Below, piece after piece: positions 1 to 15,268 of a DNA stretch of 64,000 nucleotides. This DNA comes from Hyphomicrobium album (GTDB lineage Bacteria > Pseudomonadota > Alphaproteobacteria > Rhizobiales > Hyphomicrobiaceae): assembly GCF_009708035.1 (NCBI RefSeq), contig NZ_WMBQ01000002.1, positions 248,001 through 312,000 on the forward strand, in the 5' to 3' direction. Under the pieces are notes generated by a model. The model saw nothing but the letters and a program-made list of their open reading frames with translations, was not told the DNA's origin and made no database searches. Each line of letters begins with the position of its first letter. The stretch's first letter is position 1. The translations under genes and the position numbers were made by a program.

Positions 1-585
1 GCTCAGCCGCGCCAGGTTCGACTCCGCTGCCTTGAGGCGCAACTCCGCCTCGTGGCGGCGGCTGTGCAATCCGGCGATGCCGGCCGCGTCCTCGAGTATG
101 CGGCGGCGCTGCTCGGGCTTGGCGTTGACGATCTCGCCGATCTGCCCCTGGCGCACCAGCGCCGGCGAGCGGGCGCCGGTCGCGGCGTCCTCGAACAGGA
201 TCTTGATGTCGCGGGCACGCGCCTCGCGGCTGTTGATGCGATAGGCGCTGCCCGCCTCGCGCTCGATGCGCCGGGTGATCTCGACCTGGTCGCTGTCGTT
301 GAACTCGGCCGGCGCCTTGCGTTCGTGGTTGTCGAGGAAGATCGTCACTTCCGCCGAGTTGCGGGCCGGACGCGAGTTGGTGCCGGAGAAGATCACGTCG
401 TCCATGGCGGCGGCGCGCATGCTCTTGTGCGAGGTCTCGCCCATGACCCAGCGAAGCGCTTCCAGGAGATTGGATTTGCCGCAGCCGTTCGGCCCCACGA
501 CGCCGGTGAGTCCCGGCTCGATGACCAGCTCGGTCGGCTCGACGAACGACTTGAATCCCAAAAGCCTTAGGCGAGTGATCTTCAT
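1..585 (-). CDS. smc: Chromosome segregation protein SMC, N-terminal part (runs off the window)
   Basis: The first 195 residues of an SMC ATPase, which forms the arms of the condensin-like complex that compacts and separates sister chromosomes. The start [14 protein letters not shown] is typical of alphaproteobacterial SMC. A Walker A motif GPNGCGKS lies at about residues 31-38, followed by the conserved LRWVMGE stretch. The reading frame is open to the window edge, so the coiled coil, hinge and C-terminal head lie outside. It is the first gene of a minus-strand series with two DsbA-like genes and a DUF721 gene upstream. The ATG at 585 was chosen because homologues begin at this residue. Confidence 0.95.
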
Positions 586-639
586 CGCGGTCCCTGCGCG
601 CAGCAAATAGCGCCGCTCAGCATAGCGGATGCAGCCGGA

Positions 640-1446
640 TCAGTTCGGCGCCCCAGCCGACGCGGTAGCCGGGCCCGCCAGCAGCGGATCGACCATCGCG
701 CGGATGTCCTCCAACGTGAGCTCCTTCTTTACGAGCTTGCCCGCAACGAAGAAGTTGGGAGTGCCCATGACACCGAGCTTGCGCCCGCGGTCTTTCACCC
801 ACTTGAGCCCATCGATCATGGCTTGATTCTCGCGACAGGCGTCGAACTGCTGGCGCGTCATCCCCACCTGCGCGGCGACCTTGAATACGGGGTCGAGGCG
901 CACCTCCTGGGAGACCCAGGCCGATTGCTGCTCCATGAATTTCCCATAGAGCGTCAGATACTTGTCAGGATTCGCGCAACGCAGCGCGACGGTCGCGGCA
1001 CCCGACGTCTTGCCGATCGGGAACTCGCGCATGATGAAGCGCACCTTGCCCGTGTCGATGTACTGCTTCTTGAGCTGCGGGAAGGTGGTGAGGTGGAAGT
1101 TGCGGCAGTGCGGGCAGGAGAGCGACGCGTATTCGACGATGGTGACGGGGGCGTCGGGGCGGCCCAACGCGAATTCCGGCAGCGTGCCGGTCACCATGAT
1201 GTCGGCGGGCGTCGGGTTCTCGATCACCTCGCGGCCGCCCGCGGGCTTCTCGCTCGGATCGGCGAAGGGATTGAATCGCTCCGGGCCTGTCGACGCTGTG
1301 TCCTCGGCGCTCGGATAGGCGCCGCCGGTGTCCGGCGCCTTGTCGGGCGTCAACTCAGTGGTCGGCGGCAACAGGGTATTGCCGCCGCACCCCGCCAGCA
1401 GGGCCGGGAGCATGAGCAGCGCAGCAAGGACGCTTATCCGGCTCAC
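640..1446 (-). CDS. DsbA-family thiol:disulfide oxidoreductase, lipoprotein form (CPHC)
   Basis: Envelope thioredoxin-fold protein of about 268 residues, expected to form or shuffle disulfides in exported proteins. A GTG start at 1446 lies 11 nt after the previous stop with a weak AGGA ahead of it. The N-terminus carries a signal peptide ending in a lipobox LAGC (Cys20), so the protein should be lipid-anchored. A proline-rich linker of about 70 residues precedes the thioredoxin domain. The active site CPHC is at 111-114 and the cis-Pro loop reads GTPNFF. The gene directly upstream encodes a second DsbA with a different active site and no lipobox, so the two look like diverged tandem paralogues in one operon. 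Confidence 0.88.
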   Translation of the reverse strand: MSRISVLAALLMLPALLAGCGGNTLLPPTTELTPDKAPDTGGAYPSAEDTASTGPERFNPFADPSEKPAGGREVIENPTPADIMVTGTLPEFALGRPDAPVTIVEYASLSCPHCRNFHLTTFPQLKKQYIDTGKVRFIMREFPIGKTSGAATVALRCANPDKYLTLYGKFMEQQSAWVSQEVRLDPVFKVAAQVGMTRQQFDACRENQAMIDGLKWVKDRGRKLGVMGTPNFFVAGKLVKKELTLEDIRAMVDPLLAGPATASAGAPN

Positions 1447-1457
1447 GATCCTATGGC

Positions 1458-2150
1458 TCAGCTCTTGGCCAGCAGCGGCTCGATCATGGCGTCGAACTTG
1501 TCCAGCGTCGGACCGCCGTCGAGCTTCTTGCCGTTGATGTAGAAGGTCGGCGTCGACTGCACGCCGAACACGTCGGAGGCGCGCGTGCGGCCGGCGGTGA
1601 TGTCGTCGAGCAGCTTCTGATCGGTCAGGCACTTGTCGAACGACTCCTGCGTGAAGCCGGCCTGCTTGGCGATCTCGAACAGCCGCGGCACGGGGTTGCC
1701 TTCGCCGAACGCCCACTCCTGCTGCTTCTCGAACATCACCTCGATCAGCGGGAAGGCTTTGTCGCCCCCGGCGCAGCGCGCCAGCATCGAGGCGGCGGCG
1801 GCGAGGTTGTCGAGCGGGAACTCGCGGAAAATGTAGCGCACCTTGCCGGTGTCGACGTACTTCTTCTTGAACTCGGGCCACACATCCTTGGTGAAGTGAG
1901 CGCAGTGGCCGCAGGTCATCGACGCGTACTCGACGACCGTCACCTTGGCGTCCGTGGGGCCGACCGCCAGGTCCGGCAAGCCGACCGGCTTCATCAGCTC
2001 CTCGACCGGCACCTCGCTCGGCCCCTTCTGCTGTTGCTGGGCGGCAACGGGGAGGGCGAGGACGGTGACGATGGCACCGGCGCAGAGGGCGGCAACGGCG
2101 GCGCGGCGCGCAAGCTCAAAACGGCCGGAGTAGAACTTCGATGCGGACAC
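1458..2150 (-). CDS. DsbA-family thiol:disulfide oxidoreductase, soluble periplasmic form (CGHC)
   Basis: A 230-residue secreted DsbA-like protein. The GTG start at 2150 is supported by a good AAGGAG about 7 nt upstream; longer in-frame starts lack such a site. A hydrophobic signal segment at about 17-37 ends ALPVAA, giving a Gln-rich mature N-terminus. The thioredoxin active site CGHC is at 80-83 and the cis-Pro loop is STPTFY. CGHC is the dipeptide seen in PDI-like and some DsbA-like enzymes, whereas the neighbouring paralogue has CPHC, so their redox potentials probably differ. The first gene of the dsbA-dsbA-smc run on the minus strand; the partner that re-oxidises it (DsbB) is not in the window. 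Confidence 0.88.
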   Translation of the reverse strand: MSASKFYSGRFELARRAAVAALCAGAIVTVLALPVAAQQQQKGPSEVPVEELMKPVGLPDLAVGPTDAKVTVVEYASMTCGHCAHFTKDVWPEFKKKYVDTGKVRYIFREFPLDNLAAAASMLARCAGGDKAFPLIEVMFEKQQEWAFGEGNPVPRLFEIAKQAGFTQESFDKCLTDQKLLDDITAGRTRASDVFGVQSTPTFYINGKKLDGGPTLDKFDAMIEPLLAKS

Positions 2151-2291
2151 GTGTGTGCTCCTTGGACGAACTACGTTATTGCGGCCCGGGCGCTCCCGCC
2201 CGACTAGCACGCTATCGGGCGTTGGAATAAGGCAAAACGGGCCGCGCTCCAAGTGAATGAAGCTTAATGCTCGCCCTGATGTAGGGGTTTT

Positions 2292-2849
2292 TCAGCGGCT
2301 TTGGGCGCGGTGCGTCAGACCGGATTTCAGGTTCGCCAGCGCCGTCCGTAGCCGCTCGTCGGCAATTCCGGCAAGCTCGGGCGCGGTGTCGGGTGTGACA
2401 GGCGCGCGCGGGGCCTCGGATGGGGCTCGGGCGCGCTCGGGTAGCGGCGCCTGCATGATGCGCAGCTCGCCGACGGCGCGGTAACCGAAATGGCCGTTGA
2501 TGCGCTCGATGATCTGTTGCGCCTTGTATTGCGCGTCGAGCGCGCGGGCCGGGTCCACCCGGACGATCAGCGTGGCGCCGGGCCGTCCTTGCGCGCCGTC
2601 TTCCACGTCGCCGCCGATGTCGACGCCGCGCGGCCATTTCAGCCGTTCCGGCGCCGTGTACTGCGCCACCTCGGCGCCGACGATGACCGCCCAATCGGTG
2701 AGCAGTGCCGCGGCGGCGAAGCCGTACTTCTCGAAGGCCTTGTGCGTCAGCTTCGGAACGTAGGTGCCGACGGCGCGTGCCGAGATGTAGCCACGCGAGT
2801 GTGGCGTCGGCGCCGTTCGGGCGCGCAGTGCTGCGGTGTTGCTGGCCAT
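2292..2849 (-). CDS. DUF721 family protein (DciA-like)
   Basis: A 185-residue protein of the DUF721 family, which includes DciA, a bacterial DnaC/DnaI-independent helicase-loading factor. The conserved part (roughly 15-115) contains the DWAVIVGAEVAQYTAPERL segment and the RVDPARALD-QYKAQQIIERIN stretch typical of the family; the C-terminal third is Pro/Ala/Arg-rich. It lies between dsbA genes and divergent mutY, an arrangement common in Hyphomicrobiales. Start ATG at 2849 gives MASNTAAL. The DciA function is inferred from family membership only. Confidence 0.85.
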   Translation of the reverse strand: MASNTAALRARTAPTPHSRGYISARAVGTYVPKLTHKAFEKYGFAAAALLTDWAVIVGAEVAQYTAPERLKWPRGVDIGGDVEDGAQGRPGATLIVRVDPARALDAQYKAQQIIERINGHFGYRAVGELRIMQAPLPERARAPSEAPRAPVTPDTAPELAGIADERLRTALANLKSGLTHRAQSR

Positions 2850-2939
2850 GCTAGGCTTAGTCCGCCTTGGAGAGTTTGCAGCGCGGTATTCGACGCTTAG
2901 CATCGCCGGATCGATTCGCGGGCGCCGGGAGACGATCCC

Positions 2940-4046
2940 TTGACTGCTGTTGCGCGAAAGCAACTGCCGCTCCGGCCGGCCGGCCCCGACACGGTCGACG
3001 CGCTGCTCGCGTGGTACGACGAGGAGCGCCGCGATCTGCCCTGGCGCGTGGCACCCGGCAAGCGTGCCGATCCCTACCGCGTCTGGCTGAGCGAGATCAT
3101 GCTGCAGCAGACGACGGTCAAAGCCGTCATCCCATTCTACGCACGCTTCCTGGCGCGCTGGCCGACCATCAAGGCGCTCGCCGCGGCGCCGCTTGACGAT
3201 GTGCTCGCCGCCTGGGCGGGGCTCGGCTACTACAGCCGCGCGCGCAACCTGCACAAGTGCGCCATCGCCGTGGTCGAGGATTTCGGCGGCAAGTTTCCCT
3301 CGACCATCGCCGAGCTGCAGAAGCTGCCCGGCATCGGCCCGTACACGGCGAACGCGATTGCCGCGATCGCCTTCGGCGAATCCGCGACGCCTGTCGACGG
3401 CAATGTCGAGCGCGTCGTCGCGCGGCTGTTCGCGGTGCGCCAATCGTTGCCGGCGGCGAAGACCGAATTGAAGCGGCTCGCCGCCACACTTACACCCGAG
3501 CGCCGTGCCGGCGACTTCGCGCAAGCGATGATGGATCTCGGCGCCGGCATCTGCACGCCGCGCCGCCCGTCGTGCCTCGTCTGTCCGGTGCAGCAGGACT
3601 GCGCCGCCGCGGCGCATGGCATTGCCGAGCAGCTGCCGATGCGGCTCGAGCGCGCCGAGCGCCCGCAGCGCGTCGGCTTCGCCTTCGTTGCCTTGCGCGA
3701 GGACGGCTGCGTGCTCGTGCGCAAGCGCGCGGAGGCGGGGCTGCTCGGCGGCATGCTGGAGGTGCCGAGCACCGCGTGGGGCGACCTGCTGCCGCCGGCC
3801 AAGGAAGCGCTGAGGTCGGCGCCGTTACGTGCCGACTGGTGGGCCGTGCCCGGCACCGTCGTGCACGTGTTCACGCATTTCCGTTTGGAGCTCATCGTCT
3901 ATCGCGCGCTGGTGCCGGCCGACGCCACGCTCACCTTCTGGGCCGAGCCGGAGCGCTGCCAGTGGGTGGCGCGCCGCGACCTGCACGCCGCGGCGCTGCC
4001 GAGCGTCATGCGCAAGGTCATCGGCCACGCGCTGAAAGAGAACTAG
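2940..4046 (+). CDS. mutY: A/G-specific adenine DNA glycosylase MutY
   Basis: A 368-residue base-excision repair enzyme removing adenine mispaired with 8-oxoguanine. The HhH motif LPGIGPYTANAI lies at 129-140. The catalytic Glu52 is in SEIMLQQT and the catalytic Asp153 in PVDGNV. The [4Fe-4S] ligands Cys205, Cys212, Cys215 and Cys221 keep the C-x6-C-x2-C-x5-C spacing. The C-terminal half is a NUDIX-like domain that in MutY recognises 8-oxoG. The start is a TTG at 2940, with GGGAGA about 9 nt upstream. It is divergent from the DUF721 gene across about 90 bp. Confidence 0.96.
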   Translation: MTAVARKQLPLRPAGPDTVDALLAWYDEERRDLPWRVAPGKRADPYRVWLSEIMLQQTTVKAVIPFYARFLARWPTIKALAAAPLDDVLAAWAGLGYYSRARNLHKCAIAVVEDFGGKFPSTIAELQKLPGIGPYTANAIAAIAFGESATPVDGNVERVVARLFAVRQSLPAAKTELKRLAATLTPERRAGDFAQAMMDLGAGICTPRRPSCLVCPVQQDCAAAAHGIAEQLPMRLERAERPQRVGFAFVALREDGCVLVRKRAEAGLLGGMLEVPSTAWGDLLPPAKEALRSAPLRADWWAVPGTVVHVFTHFRLELIVYRALVPADATLTFWAEPERCQWVARRDLHAAALPSVMRKVIGHALKEN

Positions 4047-4114
4047 CGACGTAGAGTACGCCCTGACGGCGGAACGGGGTTTGAAGCTGCGCAGTTTGGG
4101 ACACATCTACAGGT

Positions 4115-5812
4115 ATGGCCCAATCCACCGTCGCCACCTATCTCCTCGAGCGCCTGAAGCAGGCGGGGCTCAGGCATGCCTTCGGTGTGCCGGGCGACTA
4201 TGTGCTGACGTTCATGGACCGGCTGATCGAGTCCGGCATCGAGTTCGTCGGCACCTGCAATGAGCTCAACGCCGGCTATGCCGCCGACGCCTACGCGCGG
4301 ATCAACGGCATCGGTTGCATCTGTGTCACCTGGGGCGTGGGCGGCTTCAGCGCCATGAACGCCATCGCCGGCGCCTACGCCGAGCAGGTTCCCGTCGTCG
4401 TCCTCGTCGGCGGCCCGCGTACCACGCAGCGGCGCTCCTCCATGCTGCTGCATCACAGCGTCGGCGACTTCTCGACCATGCAGCAGGCGTATTCGCACAT
4501 CACCGCGGCCTCGGTCCTGCTCGACGATCCCGCCGAGGCGCCGCAGCGCATCGATCGCGCGCTCGCCCGCTGCATGGCCGAGAAGCGCCCGATCATGATC
4601 GAGATCCCCGCCGACATGGTGGACCGGCCGTGTCCCCCGCCGGGTCCCTTCGCGGCTCCCGCACGCCCGCCGTCCGATCCGGACGCGCTGGCCGAGGCGC
4701 TCGAGGAGGCCATGTCGCTGCTCTTGACGGCGAAGCGCCCGGTGATCCTGGGCGGCGTCGAGCTGCACCGTTACGGGCTGATGGATGAATTCCATCGTCT
4801 GGTGGAAGCGAGCGGCGTGCCCGTCGCCACCACGCTACTCGGCAAGACGGTGATCTCCGAGCACCACCCGCAAGCCATCGGCGTCTACGAGGGCGGCATG
4901 TCGCGGCGCGAGGTACGCGACGTCGTGGAGAAGGCGGACGTCCTGCTCTGCCTCGGCGCCTGGATCAGCGACATTTGCCTTGGCGTCAATACGGGCCGGC
5001 TCGAGGGCCGGCACATGATCCTTGCCAATTCCGGGCGTCTCAAAATCAGCCAGCACGTCTACGAGCAAGTGTGGATCGGCGATGTCGTATCGGGGCTGGC
5101 GGATCGCATGCCGGTTGCCGGCCTCACGCACCCGCCATTCACCAGCGTGTCGCGGCTGCTCGATACCGGCTTTGTCGCCGAGCCCGGCCGCAAGCTGACC
5201 GTCAGCCGTGTCATGAAGCGCATCAACGGCTTCATCGGCAACGACACGACGGTCATCGCCGAGACGGGCGACTCGATCGTTGCCGCCGCCGACCTCGTCA
5301 TGCACCACGACGTCGGCTTCATCGGCCAGGCTTTCTATCTGTCGATCGGCTACGCGCTGCCGGCGACGCTCGGCGCCTCGCTGGCCGACCCCGCGCGGCG
5401 TCCCTTGGCGCTGATCGGCGACGGCGCTTTCCAGATGAGCGCCCAAGAGCTGTCCTCGCTGTGCCGCCGCGAGAGCAATGTCATCCTGCTGCTCATGAAC
5501 AACGACGGCTACACGACCGAGCGGGTGATCCACGAGGGCTCTTACAACGACATCCAGCCGTGGGCCTACCATCGGCTGCCGGAGATATTTGGCGGCGGCT
5601 GGGGTGAGCGCGTCACGACGGAAGACGAGCTCGACGCCGCTCTCGAGCGCGCCCGCGCCAGCAATCGAGGTCCCGCATTGGTCGAGATCATGCTCGATCG
5701 CCTCGACACCTCCGAGGCGCTGAAGCGGCTCGGTGCCGAGCTATCGCCGGATAAGGGCAGGCAAGCGGCGCAACCCGTGCTGTCAGCGGTCGAGCCGGAC
5801 GCCGCGCGCTAG
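4115..5812 (+). CDS. Thiamine-diphosphate-dependent 2-oxo acid decarboxylase (pyruvate / indolepyruvate decarboxylase type)
   Basis: A 565-residue ThDP enzyme expected to decarboxylate a 2-oxo acid to an aldehyde. Unlike acetolactate synthase relatives, it has the residue set of the pyruvate/indolepyruvate decarboxylase branch: GDY with Asp28, NEL with Glu50, the His113-His114 pair in LLHHSVG, and a late Glu in TTERVIHEG (about 469). The ThDP/Mg motif runs from GDG at about 434 to NN at about 462. Substrate is not predictable: pyruvate, indolepyruvate, phenylpyruvate or a branched-chain acid are all possible. It is followed after 128 bp by a secreted thiaminase-like gene in the same direction. 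No thiamine riboswitch-like element was seen in the 68-bp leader. Confidence 0.88.
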   Translation: MAQSTVATYLLERLKQAGLRHAFGVPGDYVLTFMDRLIESGIEFVGTCNELNAGYAADAYARINGIGCICVTWGVGGFSAMNAIAGAYAEQVPVVVLVGGPRTTQRRSSMLLHHSVGDFSTMQQAYSHITAASVLLDDPAEAPQRIDRALARCMAEKRPIMIEIPADMVDRPCPPPGPFAAPARPPSDPDALAEALEEAMSLLLTAKRPVILGGVELHRYGLMDEFHRLVEASGVPVATTLLGKTVISEHHPQAIGVYEGGMSRREVRDVVEKADVLLCLGAWISDICLGVNTGRLEGRHMILANSGRLKISQHVYEQVWIGDVVSGLADRMPVAGLTHPPFTSVSRLLDTGFVAEPGRKLTVSRVMKRINGFIGNDTTVIAETGDSIVAAADLVMHHDVGFIGQAFYLSIGYALPATLGASLADPARRPLALIGDGAFQMSAQELSSLCRRESNVILLLMNNDGYTTERVIHEGSYNDIQPWAYHRLPEIFGGGWGERVTTEDELDAALERARASNRGPALVEIMLDRLDTSEALKRLGAELSPDKGRQAAQPVLSAVEPDAAR

Positions 5813-5940
5813 ACCACGCTGGTGTTGGGACAATTCAGATAACACGTGCAACTCACCGCTTGTTCGGCCGAATGAGGCCGCTAGAGTGGGCGTTCGTTTT
5901 TCACAATTCATTTCTGCATCGATATTTGGAGAGGATTGCC

Positions 5941-7185
5941 ATGCTTCGCGCCGTCCGCGGTTTGTTGATGTTGGTTGCCTTGCTTTTGACGCCCGCCGCG
6001 CAGAGCGCCGATCAATCATCCAGACAGGTCCTGAGAGCCGCACTGTTCGAGTACATTCCGGGCTACGAGGACGACCAGCTGGGGACCCTGCGCCAGGAGA
6101 TCGAAACCAGATTTGAGCGCATGTATCCGCAGGTTGACCTGCTGCTCACCAGCCCGAGCAATCGCGATGGACTTTACAGTTCCGAGGCACTGAAGAAGTG
6201 GCTTGGCGAAGAGGGCGACGAGCATTTCCATGTGATGGAAATCGACACGCAGCTGCTCGGCGATCTGGTGCTGGCAGGTGTCATTACGCCATTCTCGCCG
6301 GCTCGCACCGACAATCTGTTCGACGTTGGCATGCGCGCCGTCACGTTCGAGGGACAGGTCTATGGCGTACCGCATCTCTTGTGCGGTCATTTCCTGTTCG
6401 CAAGGGATCCGAGCCTCCTGGAAGGCCAGGGTCAAAGTGGGCTGTTGCAGAAGTTGGCGAGCGACGGTGATGACGGAGTCGATCTAGTCGGTGACTTCGA
6501 GGGAAGCTGGACCTTGCCGTCGCTTTATCTCGATGCGTGGATGGATCGGAACCCTGGCGGCGATCCAGCGAAAGCATTCAAAGATGCGCTAACCCAGCTT
6601 GACCCTTCGGTGGTCGCCGATCTTGCCAGCATGATAAAGCTCTGCGGACCGCTGGACCGGAATGTCTGCTTCTCCGGAAAATTCAATTCGCTACCGAGCA
6701 AGATGGACGGTGCAGAGGTGCTCATAGCGCCGTTTGCCATTTCCCACGCGAACACCTACGTCGGGTACTCGGAAAGCCTGCACTATATCCGCCGGTTTCC
6801 GCGCAATGAGAACGTAGCGGTTCGCTCGGCGCCGCTCGGCGACGGCGACAATCCGATACTCTTCACGGACGCGTTTGTGGTGGGCAAGAACTGTGGAGCT
6901 GATTGTCAGAGCGCGGCGGCAAAGTTTGTGGCCTTCATGAACAGCGATGAGACGATGGCCTACCTGCTCCTAGGCAAGGACATCAAGAACAACACGGTGC
7001 CGCGCTACCTTTTGCCAGCGACCAAGTCCGCGTTTTCCATCCCAGAGATAGCCCAGGACCAAACCTACGCCAGGTTCAAGGCCGATATTGTCAGGGCTGT
7101 CGCGTACCCCAACTCCGGAATCGAGGCGAACCGGAAGGCGGTCCGCAAAAAGATCACCTGCGCGATATCACCGACGGCGTGCTAG
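5941..7185 (+). CDS. Secreted thiaminase I-like protein (thiamine pyridinylase family)
   Basis: A 414-residue protein with a signal peptide (residues 1 to about 23, ending AAQSA). ATG 5941 has GGAGAGG just upstream. The mature part aligns along its length with thiaminase I, a periplasmic-binding-protein-fold enzyme that cleaves thiamine by base exchange. Shared blocks include YIPGY near 38-42, GQVYGVPHLLCGHFLF (137-153) with Cys148 at the nucleophile position (Cys113 in the Paenibacillus enzyme), YVGYSES with Glu278 at the general-base position (Glu241), PILFTD (Asp310) and RYLLPA. The Cys-to-Glu spacing is 130, close to 128 in the reference as I recall it. The gene looks less GC-rich than its flanks, suggesting transfer. 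The alternative is a thiamine or sugar binding protein, but the conserved Cys and Glu argue for the enzyme. Confidence 0.78.
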   Translation: MLRAVRGLLMLVALLLTPAAQSADQSSRQVLRAALFEYIPGYEDDQLGTLRQEIETRFERMYPQVDLLLTSPSNRDGLYSSEALKKWLGEEGDEHFHVMEIDTQLLGDLVLAGVITPFSPARTDNLFDVGMRAVTFEGQVYGVPHLLCGHFLFARDPSLLEGQGQSGLLQKLASDGDDGVDLVGDFEGSWTLPSLYLDAWMDRNPGGDPAKAFKDALTQLDPSVVADLASMIKLCGPLDRNVCFSGKFNSLPSKMDGAEVLIAPFAISHANTYVGYSESLHYIRRFPRNENVAVRSAPLGDGDNPILFTDAFVVGKNCGADCQSAAAKFVAFMNSDETMAYLLLGKDIKNNTVPRYLLPATKSAFSIPEIAQDQTYARFKADIVRAVAYPNSGIEANRKAVRKKITCAISPTAC

Positions 7186-7241
7186 GCCGCCGTGAATGAC
7201 GGCCCGCGCGGTACGGCGCCCCGACCAAAGTCATCTACCGC

Positions 7242-7481
7242 TCACTCCTCGTCGTGCAGGACGGCGAGTTGGAATTTCAGCGGCTCGTCGCAGAGCGAGC
7301 AACGCACCGGGAGGGTCGCCGGCACGCGCCAGTCAGCGCCGAAGCGGCTGATCAAGGCGTCGAGATCGAAGCGTGCGAACTCGTTGCAGTTGGACGTCGT
7401 GCAGGCGCCTTCGAGAACCATGCCGGCCGACTTGATGCCGCCGAGCGTCCAGGTCGTCAGCTCTTCCTCGTCGCCGGTCAT
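7242..7481 (-). CDS. Small hypothetical protein with zinc-ribbon-like cysteines
   Basis: A 79-residue protein of unknown function. ATG 7481 was chosen because GAGG lies about 5 nt upstream; longer starts overlap the divergent small gene. It has a C-x4-C pair (CTTSNC) in the first half and a C-x2-C pair (CSLC) near the C-terminus, which together could bind one zinc ion. The ending is acidic (LHDEE). It stands convergent to the thiaminase-like gene and divergent from the next small gene. No known family was recognised. Confidence 0.6.
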   Translation of the reverse strand: MTGDEEELTTWTLGGIKSAGMVLEGACTTSNCNEFARFDLDALISRFGADWRVPATLPVRCSLCDEPLKFQLAVLHDEE

Positions 7482-7630
7482 CGCCGCCTCACGCTGCCTG
7501 TATCCCGATAGCCGCATGATCGCTGATAAGGGGTCCCGTGTCGCTTGTGTCGCAGGCGCCGCCCTCATCGGAACTCGAATCGCGCCGTATCCGTTTTTGC
7601 GATGCAGCAACACGGAGCCGCCGAAGCTAT

Positions 7631-7840
7631 ATGTTCCCCCCGCTGGTAAGCCCCGACAATCTCGCCATTCTGCAGAAAGCCATCGACACGGCGCTCGGTC
7701 TCGCGGCCCGGCGCAATGTCGTGTTGACGGTGAACGAGCTGGCCGCCCAGTTGTCGTCCGCCTTCGAGGCGGGCGAGCGCGATCCCGTCAAACTCGCCGA
7801 GGCGGTGTTTGCACCGCCGCCCGGGATGGCGCTGCACTAG
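7631..7840 (+). CDS. Small hypothetical protein
   Basis: A 69-residue soluble protein of unknown function beginning MFPPLVSPDNLAIL. It is predicted to be mostly helical, with no signal peptide, cysteine pairs or recognisable motif. An in-frame ATG-like start farther upstream at 7538 would add 31 residues of basic low-complexity sequence and overlap the divergent gene, so 7631 is preferred. It ends 11 bp before the stop of the convergent EAL gene. Confidence 0.55.
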   Translation: MFPPLVSPDNLAILQKAIDTALGLAARRNVVLTVNELAAQLSSAFEAGERDPVKLAEAVFAPPPGMALH

Positions 7841-7850
7841 CGCCGCCGGA

Positions 7851-9458
7851 CTATGCGGCAGCCGGACGAATGGACCACGCCGCATTGCCGCGCGCGAGCA
7901 GCGCCGTCAGCTCGTTGATGTCGAGAGGGCGCGAGATCACGTAGCCCTGCACGTAGTCGACCAACCCTGTCGCGCGCAGAACGTTGAGCCGCGCCAGCGT
8001 CTCGACCCCCTCGACGATGATCAGCCTGCCAGTCGTCTTGATGATCTCGATCACCTGCACCAGCATGCGGCCCATCACGCTGTCGGGCGGCGACATGGCG
8101 AACGAGCGGTCGAGCTTCACGCCGTGCACCGCGAGCCTGGCGACGCGCTCGATGCTCGAATAGCCCGTCCCGAAATCGTCGATGAAGGTCCGCACGCCGG
8201 CCGCCGCCAGCGCTTCGATCGTGCACTGCGCGCTCTCGAAGTCGATGTCGTGGTTCTCGACGAGTTCCACGGCGGCGCGGAAGCGCTGCGGCTCGCCGAG
8301 GAACTTGACGAAGATCTTCAGCAGGTCCGTGCTGTCGAAATCCGGGGCGAAGACGTTGAAGCTCACCTCCAGCGGCGTGTCGCGCCCGATGTGTTCGCTC
8401 AACTCGGCGTAGGCGCGGTCCACGACCAACTGCGTGAACTCCCCCGTGCGGCCGGAGCGGGCGACGATGTCGATGAAGCGGTTCGGCGCCACGAGGGTCC
8501 CGTCGACGTCTCGCCACCGCGCCAACACCTCCACGCCCACGATGTCGTCGGTCTTGAGATCGACCAGCGGCTGGTAAGCGACGACGATCGATTGGGCATT
8601 GAGGCCCCGCGTGAAGCGCGCTTCGAACGACCAATAGCGAGCGAGCCAGTCGGCGATGTTGTTGGCGCACACCCACGCGAAAAGCGCCGCCAGGAGGATG
8701 GTCGACGAGAGGATCGGCAGCCAGTCCTTCGCCCAGTCGAAGAGATTTGCGCGGGAGGCCACGCAATAGGGGCCCGCCGGATCGCAGATAGAGGATGTCA
8801 GCGTCGTGAGCCCCGCGCCGAGCGAAGGATGTTTCTCCGCTTCGAGGCTCTCGAACAACCCGCGATCGCCGGCGACGCTCCAAACCTTTCCGTCGGCGCC
8901 GCGGGAGACGAGCTCCTTGTGCAACCACGGTGATTCATTCTCGTAACGGGTGTAGGGCGGGATCGCGACGGCGAAGTTGCCGAGTTGGGCGATGGTGCCG
9001 ATCACGCCGGCCAGGCCGATCGAAGCAAGGTCACGATCCACGCGCCAGCTCGGATCGTTCGACGTGGTCGTGGCGATGTCGGGTGCCGCAAGCAGCACCG
9101 GTGGCTCGAAGCTCGGCTGACTGGTCGAGCACTCGATGCGACCGCCCGGCGCGTAGAGAAACTCGTTGAGCCCATCCGGCAGGAACGCCACGCGCCGCAT
9201 CTGGGCGAGGAAGTCGCGCGAGCAGGGAACTGCGGTGGCATCCCGTTGCAGCATGCGCAGGGCATCCACGACGCCGGTGCGAATGGAGTTGATGCGCGCC
9301 AGCTCGGCGCGCTGATCGTGACGGATGAAGCTACGCACTTGCCAATGCACGAAGCCGTAGCCGAGGCCCAAAAGGGCGGCGAGGATTGCGCCCCACAGCA
9401 CGCCGCGTAGCAGCCGCCGGTGCCGCCCGGCGATCAATGCATTAACGATTGCCGACAT
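7851..9458 (-). CDS. Membrane cyclic-di-GMP phosphodiesterase with CSS-motif-like sensor and EAL domain
   Basis: A 535-residue inner-membrane protein. Transmembrane helices lie at about 20-40 and 245-265. The periplasmic loop between them resembles the CSS-motif sensor of PdeC-type enzymes, in which disulfide state controls activity, but the signature here reads ECSTS rather than CSS. The cytoplasmic EAL domain (about 280-525) keeps the catalytic DDFGTGYSS loop, the LDRSF lysine/aspartate region and VEGVET, with EVL in place of EAL at the entry motif. It is therefore predicted to hydrolyse c-di-GMP. There is no GGDEF domain. Further cysteine pairs in the loop (SSICDPAGPYC) fit a redox-sensing role, and the window also holds two DsbA-like proteins. 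Confidence 0.88.
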   Translation of the reverse strand: MSAIVNALIAGRHRRLLRGVLWGAILAALLGLGYGFVHWQVRSFIRHDQRAELARINSIRTGVVDALRMLQRDATAVPCSRDFLAQMRRVAFLPDGLNEFLYAPGGRIECSTSQPSFEPPVLLAAPDIATTTSNDPSWRVDRDLASIGLAGVIGTIAQLGNFAVAIPPYTRYENESPWLHKELVSRGADGKVWSVAGDRGLFESLEAEKHPSLGAGLTTLTSSICDPAGPYCVASRANLFDWAKDWLPILSSTILLAALFAWVCANNIADWLARYWSFEARFTRGLNAQSIVVAYQPLVDLKTDDIVGVEVLARWRDVDGTLVAPNRFIDIVARSGRTGEFTQLVVDRAYAELSEHIGRDTPLEVSFNVFAPDFDSTDLLKIFVKFLGEPQRFRAAVELVENHDIDFESAQCTIEALAAAGVRTFIDDFGTGYSSIERVARLAVHGVKLDRSFAMSPPDSVMGRMLVQVIEIIKTTGRLIIVEGVETLARLNVLRATGLVDYVQGYVISRPLDINELTALLARGNAAWSIRPAAA

Positions 9459-9580
9459 GCGCCTCAGCCGCTGGCCCCGTGGCTCAATGCTGCCGAAAAG
9501 CGCTGAAATTTGCGTGTGGGCGCCCGTTCAATTGCCAAATAACGCGGCGCTATCAAGGGCAGGCGCCTCTAAACGACAAC

Positions 9581-9604
9581 GCCTCCGAGCATTGGCTCGG
9601 AGGC
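9581..9604 (-). terminator. Hairpin terminator after the RlpA-like gene
   Basis: A perfect 10-bp stem (9581-9590 with 9595-9604) and a 4-nt loop, 20 nt after the stop codon of the RlpA-like gene. The U-run on the minus strand is weak, so it may need Rho or act as a stabilising 3' hairpin. Confidence 0.6.
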
Positions 9605-9624
9605 GCCGCACGCAGGAGTAGGTA

Positions 9625-10005
9625 CTACTTGTCGTTCTGGGCCGTCTTCTTTTCGGAGCCGCCCTTGCCGAGCACGGCCAGGTGTACTCTGTGCAGGCCC
9701 GAGAAGCCGAGCGCGCTGGCGGCACCCTTCGACAGGTCGATGATGCGGCCTTTGATGAAGGGCCCACGGTCGACGATCGTCACCACGACCGAGCGTCCGG
9801 TGCTCGCGCTCTTGACCCGCACCTTGGTACCGAACGGCAGGCTCCGGTGGGCGGCGACCATGGCGCTCGACTTGTAAGCGCGTCCGCTCGCCGTGACCGA
9901 CAGGTCCGAGTAGTGAGAAGCGACGCCACTCTGAGCGCGGGCCGAGGCCCAGGGGGCCAGGATGGCAGCGGCAACAGCGATCGTTCCGACTATCAGGGCT
10001 TGCAT
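9625..10005 (-). CDS. RlpA-like septal ring lytic transglycosylase / DPBB protein
   Basis: A 126-residue exported protein with a double-psi beta-barrel domain. ATG 10005 is preceded by GAGGG at 8-9 nt. A signal peptide (MQALIVGTIAVAAAILAPWA) ends in ASARA. The DPBB core runs from ASHYSD through AAHRSLPFGTKVRV to DRGPFIKGRIIDLSKGAA, which is diagnostic for RlpA. The C-terminal SPOR domain of full-length RlpA is absent, as in many short alphaproteobacterial versions. It probably acts on peptidoglycan. The C-terminus after the barrel is short and basic. Confidence 0.88.
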   Translation of the reverse strand: MQALIVGTIAVAAAILAPWASARAQSGVASHYSDLSVTASGRAYKSSAMVAAHRSLPFGTKVRVKSASTGRSVVVTIVDRGPFIKGRIIDLSKGAASALGFSGLHRVHLAVLGKGGSEKKTAQNDK

Positions 10006-10254
10006 CAGATATTCCCTCAATTGTTTGCGACGAGGGCCTCTTTGCATGCTCAAGTCGATCGCGAAACCGCGTGTTCCTTCAAAGACTTGCAACGCTCTGC
10101 AATATACTTTTTCTTAACCACTTTGCGGCCCCGCCACACCGCGATCGCCGGCCGCGAGCCGGTAACGTGCACGCAGCAATTTGACGCTGGTCGTTAACCT
10201 CGAACGGCCCGCTGGCGGGACGCTCGGCACGTGCATCGTTGAGCGAAGCGTCGT

Positions 10255-10548
10255 CTAGCGCGTCTTGGTTCGGCGCGTGCGCGCGCCGTTCTGGTCGTTG
10301 GCGGGAATGCCACGCGTCGACTGGCGCAGCGCTTCCTTCAGACCGGTCGGGCGCCCGTGCTTCTTCAGAAGATCGCGGAAAGCCTCGTCGGCCAGCTCCT
10401 GGAAGTCTTTCATCGAGTCGCGCGCGAGCAGCTGCAGCGCCTGCAGCGTCGCCGGGTCGAACTCGATGAGCTTGCGGGGCGCGTTCTCCTCCAGCTCGGC
10501 CGAGCCGGTGAGGCGGGACGGTTTCTTGCTGGGCGGCTTTTTCGCCAT
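10255..10548 (-). CDS. Small basic protein downstream of ku (ribbon-helix-helix-like)
   Basis: A 97-residue protein with a lysine-rich N-terminus (AKKPPSKKPSR) and an Arg/Lys-rich C-terminus. The middle, FDPATLQALQLLARDSM followed by ADEAFRDLLKKHG, resembles the helix arrangement of ribbon-helix-helix DNA-binding proteins, although the fold cannot be proven here. It starts 34 nt after the ku stop on the same strand, so the two are probably one transcript. Function unknown; a DNA-binding helper in repair is one possibility. Confidence 0.75.
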   Translation of the reverse strand: MAKKPPSKKPSRLTGSAELEENAPRKLIEFDPATLQALQLLARDSMKDFQELADEAFRDLLKKHGRPTGLKEALRQSTRGIPANDQNGARTRRTKTR

Positions 10549-10582
10549 CGCCGGCGTCCCGTCTTAGTGTTGGCGCGCCGCT

Positions 10583-11446
10583 CTAAGCGCGTTTCTTGGT
10601 GCCGCCGCGGCGTGGTGCCGGCGTGCGCCGCGAGGTGGAGCGCGTCGCCTTCGCCTTGCCGCCGCTGCCTTCGCCTATCGACTTGCGAAGCGCTGCCATC
10701 AAGTCGATGACCTTGGCGCCGCCGGGAGCCGCTTCCTCGTGCGGGGCCTTGATCTTCTGGCCCTTCATCTTCTTCTGCACCAGCTCGCGCAGCGCGGTGG
10801 CGTAGTGGTCCTCGAACTGCTCGGGCGTGAACTTGCCGGCCTTGCGCTCGATCAGCTCGACGGCGAGATCGACCATCTCCTTGTCCGGCTTGCCGGTCGG
10901 CACCTCGTCGAAGAACTGGTCGGCTTCCTTCAGCTCGTCGGCGTAGCGCAGCATCTCCATCAACAAGCCGTCGCCAAGGGCGGTGATGGCAACGAGCCAC
11001 TCGCGCCCGCCGATGGTGAGCTGGGCGAGGCCCGCCTTGCCGGTCTTTTTCAAGGCTTCGCGGATGACGACGTAGCCTTCGCCCGAATGCTTGTCGGCGG
11101 GGGCGATGAAATAAGGGCGCTCGAAGTAGCGCGGGTCGATCTCTTCGGCGTCGACGAATTTGACGAGGTCGATGGTCTTCTTGCTCTCGAGCTTGACCGC
11201 ATCGATCTCGTCCGGGTCGAGGGTCACGTACGTGTCGCTGTCGATCTCGTAGCCCTTGACGATGTCGGCGCTCTTCACCTCGCCGATGCCCTGCACCGTC
11301 TTGGTGTAGTTGATGCGGCGGCCGGAGGGCTTGTGGATCTGCCGGAAGGAAATCTCGGATTTCGACTCGACGGCGTTATAGATCTCGACGGCGATCGACA
11401 CGAGGGAAAGGCGCAGAAAGCCCTTCCAATACGCACGGGCGGCCAT
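10583..11446 (-). CDS. ku: Non-homologous end joining protein Ku
   Basis: A 287-residue bacterial Ku that would bind DNA ends as a homodimer and recruit LigD in NHEJ. The Ku core runs from about residue 3 (ARAYWKGFLRLSLVS) through RINYTKTVQGIGEV, VKGYEID, PRYFERPYFIAP and LRYADELKE. The C-terminus is a Lys/Arg-rich tail, a region that in other bacterial Ku proteins binds DNA or LigD. ATG 11446 was chosen because homologues start MAARAYWKG; 12 extra upstream codons are possible. A small basic gene follows in the operon. No ligD is present in this window. Confidence 0.96.
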   Translation of the reverse strand: MAARAYWKGFLRLSLVSIAVEIYNAVESKSEISFRQIHKPSGRRINYTKTVQGIGEVKSADIVKGYEIDSDTYVTLDPDEIDAVKLESKKTIDLVKFVDAEEIDPRYFERPYFIAPADKHSGEGYVVIREALKKTGKAGLAQLTIGGREWLVAITALGDGLLMEMLRYADELKEADQFFDEVPTGKPDKEMVDLAVELIERKAGKFTPEQFEDHYATALRELVQKKMKGQKIKAPHEEAAPGGAKVIDLMAALRKSIGEGSGGKAKATRSTSRRTPAPRRGGTKKRA

Positions 11447-11533
11447 TGTATGCTCCGCAACTCGAGGGGACGCAGCCTCCACCTTATGACGCCAATGATA
11501 ACAAAAAAGTTCCTAGAGTTCGAAGGTCGATCC

Positions 11534-12028
11534 GTGAACCCGCAATTACTGATCCGGACCGCGATCTTGGCGGATCGGGTTGCCATCTGGGGCATCCTCG
11601 AGCCTGTCATTCGGGCCGGCGAGACCTATGCGCTGCCGGCTGACATGAGCGAGGCGGACGCCATCGCCTATTGGATGGGACCCGGGCGCGAGGTCTTTCT
11701 TGCCGAGCAGGACGGCCTGGTCGTCGGCACCTACTTTCTGTGTGCCAACCAGAAAGGCGGCGGCGACCATGTTGCCAACGCCGCTTACGCCACGCTTCCC
11801 GCCATGCGCGGTCGCGGCATCGCGAGGGGGATGGCCGAACACTCGCTCGCCGAGGCGCGCCGGCGCGGCTTCCTGGCCATGCAATACAACTTCGTCGTCA
11901 GCTCGAACGCGGACGCCGTGCACCTTTGGCAGAGTCTCGGCTTTGAGATCGTTGGGCGGCTGCCCGGCGCTTTCCGGCATCCGCAACTCGGCCCGGTCGA
12001 CGCCCTCGTCATGTTCCGGCGGCTCTGA
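11534..12028 (+). CDS. GNAT family N-acetyltransferase
   Basis: A 164-residue GCN5-related acetyltransferase. The acetyl-CoA binding segment reads MRGRGIARGMAEHSL, preceded by a beta strand carrying VGTYFL, and followed by ADAVHLWQSLGFEIVGRLP, the usual GNAT C-terminal motif. The GTG at 11534 was chosen because the fold begins at LLIRTA and GAAGG lies about 8 nt upstream. ATG codons at 11486, 11495 and 11450 are in frame and would lengthen the protein. Substrate unknown. Divergent from ku. Confidence 0.85.
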   Translation: MNPQLLIRTAILADRVAIWGILEPVIRAGETYALPADMSEADAIAYWMGPGREVFLAEQDGLVVGTYFLCANQKGGGDHVANAAYATLPAMRGRGIARGMAEHSLAEARRRGFLAMQYNFVVSSNADAVHLWQSLGFEIVGRLPGAFRHPQLGPVDALVMFRRL

Positions 12029-12181
12029 GCGGCCGATGTGACGGCCCATACGGCGTGCATTGGCGCCCCGGCGTGGCATTGCGGTCACCCTTAGTTAAGC
12101 GACGGTTGTTACTTTCTCGAAATGAGGCGCGGGGGGAAACGACGTTGTTCCGTAGTCCTCATTGCATCAACGAGGAAGAAT

Positions 12182-12445
12182 ATGCGGGACACCCTTGCTC
12201 TCGGCTCGGCGGCCTTTGCGGCGCTCGCCCTGCTCGCCGTTGCTAACACTGACGCCAGCGCCGAGTTCTATCGGACGCCCGCCGGCGAGGTGAAGTACCG
12301 CCGGCCCGACCCCAACGCCAACACCCCGGTCCTGTTCTATTACCGCGGCTACGCCTACCCCTACGTCTCGGGCCTCGCCTATCGCGAGCGCGCCGGTGAG
12401 GTGCGTCCGTCGGATGCCCCGTACCGCGAGCGGGTGCAGCGCTAA
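12182..12445 (+). CDS. Small secreted protein, tyrosine- and arginine-rich
   Basis: An 87-residue protein with a clear signal peptide (residues 1 to about 26, ending DASA). The mature 60 residues contain EFYRTPAGEVKYRRP and two YRER motifs, in AYRERAGEVR and PYRERVQR. ATG 12182 is preceded by GAGGAAGA. No family recognised. It is convergent with the FMO-like gene, 28 bp away. Confidence 0.65.
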   Translation: MRDTLALGSAAFAALALLAVANTDASAEFYRTPAGEVKYRRPDPNANTPVLFYYRGYAYPYVSGLAYRERAGEVRPSDAPYRERVQR

Positions 12446-12473
12446 GCCAAAGCTGAATTGAGGTTCGGCGCCG

Positions 12474-13823
12474 TCACTCGTTGACGGCGACGGCCTTGTC
12501 GCGCCCGTCGAATTCATAAAGGGACGGGTCGAAGGGCGGACGGCCCTGGGTCTCGGCGATGATGCGCGCCCGCCGCTTCAGGAGCGGCAGCACCTTGTGG
12601 GCCAGCCAGATCACCCGGCGCGTCGCCCCCGGATCGATCAGGTGCGAGGTCGGCACCTTGAGCCCCCGCCACTTGAGCACGTAGCCGATCGGCAGGTCGA
12701 TCTCGTCCTGTATCGCGATCATCTCGGCGTAGAGCTTCGCGGCCGGCGAGATGATGGCGCCGAAGCCGTTGCGCGGCTGCGCCCAGCCGACGATGTAGAG
12801 GTTCTTTACCGCCTCGGGGAAGGCGCCGCCGTACACCTGGACGATGTCGTTCTCGATCGGCACGAGGTTCGCGGGCAGGAACGGGATGGCGTTGTTGAAG
12901 CCTGTGGCGGCGACGATGAGATCGTATTCGCCGACGCTGCCGTCGACGAAATGCACCTTCGTGCCGGAGAAGCGGGCGATGTCCGGTCGCGGTTTGATGC
13001 GGCCCTGGCGCAGGTAGTTCAGCACGTCCGTGCCGAACGCCGGATGCCTCTCGAAGAGCTTGTGCGACGGCCGCTGCAATCCGTACTGGCGATAGTCGCC
13101 GATGAAGATGCGGACGAGCGACTTCAGCACGAGGCGCTGCACCCACACCGGCAGGCCCCAGATCGGCAGGTCGGTCAGCGGGCGGCCGAACGCGGTCTTG
13201 GGCAGGAACCAATAGCCCGAGCGCAGGCTCCAGTCGCACGCGGCGCCGACGCGCGCCGCCTCGCAGGTGATGTCGCAGCCGGAGTTGCCGCCGCCGATGA
13301 CGAGCACCCGCTTGTCGCGCAGCTGCTTCGGTTCCCTGTAGTCCGAGGAATGGATGAGCGATCCGGTGAAGCGTCCGCGATAGTGCGGCAAGCGCTTGTC
13401 CCAATGATGCCCGTTGCAGACGACGACGCCCTTGTAGGTGCGCTCTTCGCCGTCCTCGAACGTCACCTGCCAGGTCTCGTCGGCGAGCGGCGCCGCGCGG
13501 ACGACTTTGCGGTTGAGCTCGATCGAGGCGTTGAGGTCGCGATCGTGCGCGAAGCTCTCCAGATAGCGCAGCATCTGCGTGCTGCTCGGGAAATCCGGAT
13601 AGTGCGCCGGCATCGGATAATCGGTGTAGCCGGTCGACTTCTTCGAGGAGACGATGTGCACGCCCTGGTACACGCCGTGGCGCCACAACCCGCCGATGCC
13701 GTCCGAGGCGTCGACGTGATCGAAAGCGACGTCGCGCTGCTTCAACGCGTCAGCCATAGCCAAACCGACAGGACCCGCGCCGATAACGAGTAGGCGGTCG
13801 GTTCTCAGCGCGGTGCGACGCAT
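12474..13823 (-). CDS. Flavin-containing monooxygenase-like NAD(P)/FAD oxidoreductase
   Basis: A 449-residue class B flavoprotein monooxygenase. The FAD-binding motif VIGAGPVGLA is near the N-terminus and the NADPH-binding motif VIGGGNSGCD lies near residue 175. Between them the FMO fingerprint appears as FTGSLIHSSDY, which fits F-x-G-x3-H-x3-Y. The ATG-motif region VAATGFNNAIPFLP is present towards the C-terminus. Substrate unknown: N- or S-oxidation, or Baeyer-Villiger-like chemistry, are all possible for this family. No obvious pathway partners lie next to it. Confidence 0.85.
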   Translation of the reverse strand: MRRTALRTDRLLVIGAGPVGLAMADALKQRDVAFDHVDASDGIGGLWRHGVYQGVHIVSSKKSTGYTDYPMPAHYPDFPSSTQMLRYLESFAHDRDLNASIELNRKVVRAAPLADETWQVTFEDGEERTYKGVVVCNGHHWDKRLPHYRGRFTGSLIHSSDYREPKQLRDKRVLVIGGGNSGCDITCEAARVGAACDWSLRSGYWFLPKTAFGRPLTDLPIWGLPVWVQRLVLKSLVRIFIGDYRQYGLQRPSHKLFERHPAFGTDVLNYLRQGRIKPRPDIARFSGTKVHFVDGSVGEYDLIVAATGFNNAIPFLPANLVPIENDIVQVYGGAFPEAVKNLYIVGWAQPRNGFGAIISPAAKLYAEMIAIQDEIDLPIGYVLKWRGLKVPTSHLIDPGATRRVIWLAHKVLPLLKRRARIIAETQGRPPFDPSLYEFDGRDKAVAVNE

Positions 13824-13989
13824 ACGCGTGTCCGGAAATGTGGCTATGAATGGGCTTGAATTAGACCCAGATGCGGCAGTCGTCTACTGCGGCGTCGCGC
13901 CCTCCGGCATTGCGAACGACAACAGCACCAACCTCGGCGTGCGGGTGCTGGTTGTGCGAAAATGTCGCAAGTGATGCTCAGTGTTTTGA

Positions 13990-15268
<1,279 letters not shown>

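Follow-up and report, generated by a model that had tools for sequence, protein, structure and literature searches.

Why would an alphaproteobacterium carry a gene for a putative thiamine-degrading enzyme directly behind a gene for an enzyme that depends on thiamine diphosphate (ThDP)? The question is raised by a 64-kb stretch of Hyphomicrobium album (hereafter the window), taken from a 3.9-Mb genome in 3 contigs, in which a thiaminase I-like gene follows a decarboxylase gene (Table 1). The role of thiaminase I for the bacteria that produce it is still debated. The original prediction for this locus had recognized a secreted thiaminase I homologue and had tied it functionally to the decarboxylase; the observation was confirmed overall, and its interpretation was supported in part. 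The answer that we consider likely, if some way from certain, is that the gene encodes a horizontally gained, exported thiaminase I-type enzyme which happens to lie next to a resident decarboxylase gene, acts on external thiamine, and deprives thiamine-dependent neighbours of it. This answer draws on homology to thiaminase I, conserved catalytic residues, the presence or absence of the gene at the site in relatives, and de novo thiamine genes in the host.

The window protein matched TIGR04541 (thiamine pyridinylase; an equivalog model) with an E value of 2.4e-18, its residues 7–366 aligning with model positions 6–346 of 381, and this model was its sole NCBIfam match at E values up to 1. PF03070 (thiaminase II/TenA) was not among its Pfam matches at E values up to 1. 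When the protein was used as a query against solved structures, the top five matches were all thiaminase I (2THI, 4THI, 3THI, 4KYS, and 4HCW), with E values of 2.8e-10 for 2THI, 4.3e-7 for 4KYS, and 2.3e-6 for 4HCW. A three-member profile, built from the window protein plus two relatives, matched 2THI at 2.4e-31, 4KYS at 1.7e-28, and 4HCW, the weakest of the five thiaminase structures, at 3.2e-11; the best non-thiaminase match was the binding protein MalE1 (3e-8). An hhalign comparison of this profile with an alphaproteobacterial thiaminase that exceeds the TIGR04541 cut-off returned a probability of 99.3%. Judged from sequence, the resemblance to thiaminase I is thus far above chance.

The catalytic pair expected of such an enzyme was also found. 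In the alignment with 2THI, Cys148 and Glu278 correspond to chain residues Cys113 and Glu241, which we take to be the catalytic pair of that enzyme, and Asp102, Tyr276, and Asp310 correspond to Asp64, Tyr239, and Asp272, which, along with Tyr270, are presumably further active-site residues. The Cys and the Glu are invariant in 8/8 aligned thiaminase-like proteins and occur in 0/2 solute-binding proteins (SBPs; L006 and L007), which had weak TIGR04541 matches (E 4.8e-7 and 8.1e-7), were judged ordinary SBPs by eye, and served as an outgroup only. These results agree with the earlier assignment of Cys148 as the nucleophile and Glu278 as the general base of a thiaminase I homologue; its secretion is probable, since on inspection by eye the N-terminus looks like a typical Sec signal peptide and has no lipobox cysteine.

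We then consider how far such proteins extend among other genomes, using samples of relatives and of the class, phylum, and order that overlap in part. With the window protein as the query (E 1e-8), 0/148 other relatives matched (1/149 with its own genome). TIGR04541 at E 1e-6 matched 6/385 class genomes, namely its own, three with copies over the cut-off (G394, G474, and G243), and two with SBPs. A three-row profile (E 1e-8) matched 1/398 phylum genomes, its own only, and 3/397 order genomes: its own, G963, and G1044, the last with a copy that scores over the TIGR04541 cut-off. Within the family of G963, 1/20 genomes matched, which was G963 itself. Among 72,556 plasmid records, one matched, a conjugative Bradyrhizobium japonicum plasmid; the phage set gave no match, and the viral contigs yielded no relative with four queries. 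A first scan of genome contigs found no relative, and a second, made with a two-row alignment and two short patterns only, found one locus provisionally assigned by binning to a Nitrospinia metagenome-assembled genome. In the control genome, that of Synechococcus elongatus, TIGR04541 matched below its cut-off (E 1e-6 or lower) a protein that may be an SBP or thiaminase-like. Collectively, relatives are rare and scattered within the searched sets, and thiaminase I is sporadic yet present in Alphaproteobacteria (3/385 genomes over the cut-off and one from the order search), as had been supposed from the window.

Three kinds of relative can be set beside the window protein. The nearest on the tree is the G963 protein (L011), from the same order, which is 30% identical over 390 amino acids (aa) and, unlike the window protein, has ~90 extra N-terminal residues and different neighbour genes. 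In G963 (L013:7535–9522), the thiaminase-like gene precedes a small open reading frame (ORF) whose match to PA-IIL lectin is below the threshold. The B. japonicum p1S06B protein (WP_248889945.1) is 29% identical over 94% of the query, shares the motifs near Cys148 and Glu278, passes PF22141, and scores 109.6 bits with TIGR04541, which is above the window protein but under the cut-off; it is plasmid-borne with different neighbours. Its gene (L008:7896–9194), which carries a solute-binding protein annotation, lies on a conjugative plasmid of 573 kb that came from soybean root nodules. The over-cut-off alphaproteobacterial thiaminases (L002, L003, L004, and L012) have the catalytic Cys and Glu as in the window protein, and they carry a C-terminal cysteine-rich extension (GGWxGxWTNQ...CGC) that is absent from it.

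Several observations weigh against reading the window protein as a thiaminase. Its TIGR04541 score of 66.3 bits is under the curated cut-off of 175, its PF22141 (Thiaminase-1_dom) score of 12.1 bits is under the gathering score of 27, and it is only 20–23% identical to the four over-cut-off thiaminases. Phe308 replaces Tyr270 of 2THI. Two predicted structure models had a mean pLDDT (predicted local distance difference test) of 34 each, too low for fold comparison, and the signal peptide was called by eye. Two relatives point the same way: with TIGR04541 the G963 protein, the nearest relative, reaches just 37.8 bits, below the window protein, and it lacks Pfam matches at E 0.1 and matches the SBP L007 at E 5e-6, and WP_248889945.1 also passes the cut-off of SBP_bac_8. 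Because the scores are far under the curated cut-offs, the window protein is best described as a divergent relative of thiaminase I with predicted activity.

The flanks of the gene bear on how it came to be there. At E 1e-60, the decarboxylase was found in 7/60 genomes, its own included, with identities of 92% in G005 (same genus), 80% in G019 (same family), and 34–37% in four others. The G005 gene likewise comes after mutY, and its stop codon lies 39 bp from the EAL ORF, against 2038 bp in H. album; G005 is listed with 6% contamination, and both its flanks agree with the window. In G019 the decarboxylase stands without a thiaminase at a different site (neighbour genes by eye). With tblastn at E 1e-3, none of the seven loci fetched from relatives (L030–L036) matched the thiaminase, and none of the seven that hold a thiaminase-like gene (L008, L009, L013, and L014, of 16–17 kb, and L002–L004, of ~4 kb) matched the decarboxylase. 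The thiaminase gene has a GC content of 0.585, and 0/603 same-length windows elsewhere in the 64 kb are as low (mean 0.661, sd 0.019); its GC at third codon positions is 0.728, compared with 0.87–0.89 for mutY, the decarboxylase gene, and the EAL gene. Four further congeners (G001, G002, G003, and G006) have different genes after mutY, and the site therefore varies. The mutY-EAL stretch as a whole (window 4046–7851, L030–L034) differs among congeners, as would be expected where genes are often gained and lost. Taken together, these data are most simply explained by a gain of the thiaminase gene at this site, probably a recent one, but the relatives may instead have lost the gene. Since the only repeats at the segment borders are direct, short, and imperfect, with none inverted, we claim no mechanism of gain.

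The thiamine metabolism of the host bears on what the enzyme could be for. ThiC and ThiG (PF05690) scored over their cut-offs in 8/8 genus members, and in the host the ThiG match lies in an ORF behind thiS, which is over its cut-off, and a thiO-like gene, which scores 215 bits against a cut-off of 251; NCBIfam gave no ThiG match for this ORF, and its name rests on Pfam. The genome has one thiamine pyrophosphate (TPP) riboswitch, which precedes the TIGR00190 match of ThiC by ~1.2 kb; the thiC gene itself probably begins upstream of this match. With ThiC, ThiS, ThiG, and a ThiO-like gene, the host therefore probably makes its own thiamine. TenA as a partner was rejected, as both PF03070 matches of the host are PqqC over the PqqC cut-off, one of them beside a pqqB-like gene (by eye). 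A PF03070 search alone would misname both of these genes (L055:3779–4537 and L056:3802–4614) as TenA. The two congeners, H. album with the gene and the de novo thiamine genes and G005 with neither the gene nor its segment, form a bounded presence/absence pair that is naturally suited to testing whether thiamine sharing is altered by an exported thiaminase.

Regulatory signals were sparse around the gene. A consensus scan of positions 5600–8000 found no sigma-70-like promoter; the two terminator-like sites in this range, at 5946 and 6369, lie inside the thiaminase gene, and 2.6 are expected by chance. The 128-bp gap upstream has no sigma-70-like promoter, terminator-like site, or TPP riboswitch and folds no better than its shuffles. 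The purine-rich AGAGGA a few bases 5′ of the ATG agrees with the earlier claim that the gene has its own ribosome site. TPP-riboswitch control of the thiaminase gene was also rejected, as there is no Rfam match in the window and the one riboswitch of the genome precedes thiC.

These data speak to the alternative that the enzyme serves salvage, in which external thiamine or its damaged or toxic analogues would be cleaved and the thiazole and pyrimidine re-imported by the host. Such a role has been proposed for the Paenibacillus thiaminase I, which is called enigmatic there and whose gene shares a putative TPP-riboswitch operon with thiM, thiD, and thiE (PMC5627462). For H. album we think salvage unlikely: no thi gene was seen beside the thiaminase gene and the window lacks a TPP riboswitch, so that the Paenibacillus genetic context is missing; the single riboswitch belongs to thiC; the presence of ThiC, ThiS, and ThiG means that the host need not salvage; and its TENA_THI-4 matches are PqqC. 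Competition is most likely in our analysis. The gene would have been gained horizontally and landed beside the resident decarboxylase gene. By homology, Cys148, aided by Glu278, would attack the pyrimidine of thiamine, the thiazole would leave, and a second nucleophile would then release the pyrimidine. The enzyme would have thiamine or its close analogues as substrates and work outside the cytoplasm, and its export would keep it from the host's own cofactor pool, a property that fits the deprivation of thiamine-dependent neighbours more readily than any tie to the decarboxylase. We propose the chemistry because of the homology, and the competitive role because the thi context is missing and a myxobacterial precedent exists.

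A variant with a similarly small chance of being right is that the window protein and its G963 relative, which pair on the tree at 96/95 support, make up a branch of their own within the thiaminase I superfamily. Its substrate would have shifted, for instance to thiamine antivitamins such as methoxythiamine and oxythiamine or to a different N-linked heteroaromatic, and it would have spread horizontally as an exported enzyme of resistance or competition. A search of titles and abstract starts in an open library found no paper on this branch or on thiaminase I in Hyphomicrobiales; among those listed, PMC12815266 deals with hypha-associated bacteria that metabolize thiamine, and PMC9839694 concerns a TenA-like fish enzyme.

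We regard as improbable that the protein is a non-catalytic thiamine- or sugar-binding component of an ATP-binding cassette importer. This alternative draws on its SBP_bac_8 (PF13416) score of 26.1 bits (E 9.2e-6), slightly under the gathering score of 27, and on the Bradyrhizobium homologue, with its SBP_bac_8 match and solute-binding annotation. However, thiaminase models and structures outscored the SBP models; the catalytic pair is found in neither SBP; the eight thiaminase-like rows part from the two SBPs at 98/97 support, with a program warning on the long SBP branches; and no permease or ATPase gene was noticed in positions 1–14000, inspected by eye with six ORFs scanned against Pfam. 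Curated models leave out divergent relatives, which are then named "solute-binding protein".

The weakest alternative, the originally proposed link in which the thiaminase serves or regulates the adjacent ThDP-dependent decarboxylase, is very improbable: the two genes share a strand at 128 bp distance and possibly a transcript, but G005, at the same site, and G019, at another, have the decarboxylase and no thiaminase, the decarboxylase is missing from the seven loci with thiaminase-like genes, and the thiaminase looks exported whereas the decarboxylase does not. On the same comparisons we reject a decarboxylase-thiaminase operon as a conserved unit, and the two genes are probably adjacent by accident of position and functionally unrelated.

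The features of the locus are collected in Table 1; the positions, strand, and spacing that the original prediction had given for the two genes were exact. The decarboxylase was matched best by pyruvate and indolepyruvate decarboxylase models, with scores under the NCBIfam cut-offs, and scans of the window proteins for defence and phage families gave no match.

Table 1. Features of the thiaminase I-like locus of H. album (positions in the window)
Feature	Position	Strand	Basis or remark
mutY	2940-4046		Upstream of the decarboxylase gene
ThDP-dependent 2-keto-acid decarboxylase (pyruvate/indolepyruvate decarboxylase type), 565 aa	4115..5812	+	Three TPP_enzyme Pfam domains
Gap between decarboxylase and thiaminase-like genes, 128 bp	5813..5940		50% GC
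Thiaminase I-like protein, 414 aa, ATG start	5941..7185	+	TIGR04541, 2THI, residue mapping, invariance in alignment
Predicted nucleophile Cys148	codon 6382-6384	+	
Predicted base Glu278	codon 6772-6774	+	
Probable Sec signal peptide, residues 1-23, no lipobox	5941..6009	+	Translation judged by eye
Segment between decarboxylase and convergent EAL gene, 2038 bp	5813..7850		39 bp in congener G005
Small ORF, 123 aa, may not be a gene	7242..7613	-	No family match; inside extra segment
Small ORF, 100 aa, may not be a gene	7538..7840	+	Sub-threshold Pfam matches only; overlaps 7242..7613 ORF
EAL-domain gene	7851-9458	-	Convergent

Among known systems, the reference is the thiaminase I of Paenibacillus thiaminolyticus (PDB 2THI/3THI/4THI; TIGR04541, thiaminase_BcmE), with which the window protein has in common homology over most of its length, the Cys/Glu pair, and the equivalents of Asp64 and Asp272; unlike the Paenibacillus gene, the window gene has no visible thi or bacimethrin operon and no riboswitch. 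A further parallel is the myxobacterial CcThi1 (WP_223633232.1), which, according to PMC10499793, is a proven thiaminase I only 17.95% identical to 2THI, is exported by myxobacteria, and inhibits Phytophthora. The same source describes the nucleophile of thiaminase I as a Cys that a Glu activates, identifies these residues in CcThi1 as C148 and E269, and states that thiamine degradation is lost when both are changed. As described there, CcThi1 is a lipoprotein in outer membrane vesicles, whereas the window protein has no visible lipobox; compared by description only, CcThi1 is like the window protein in being remote from 2THI, in carrying the NCBI name of a solute-binding protein, and in having its predicted nucleophile at residue 148.

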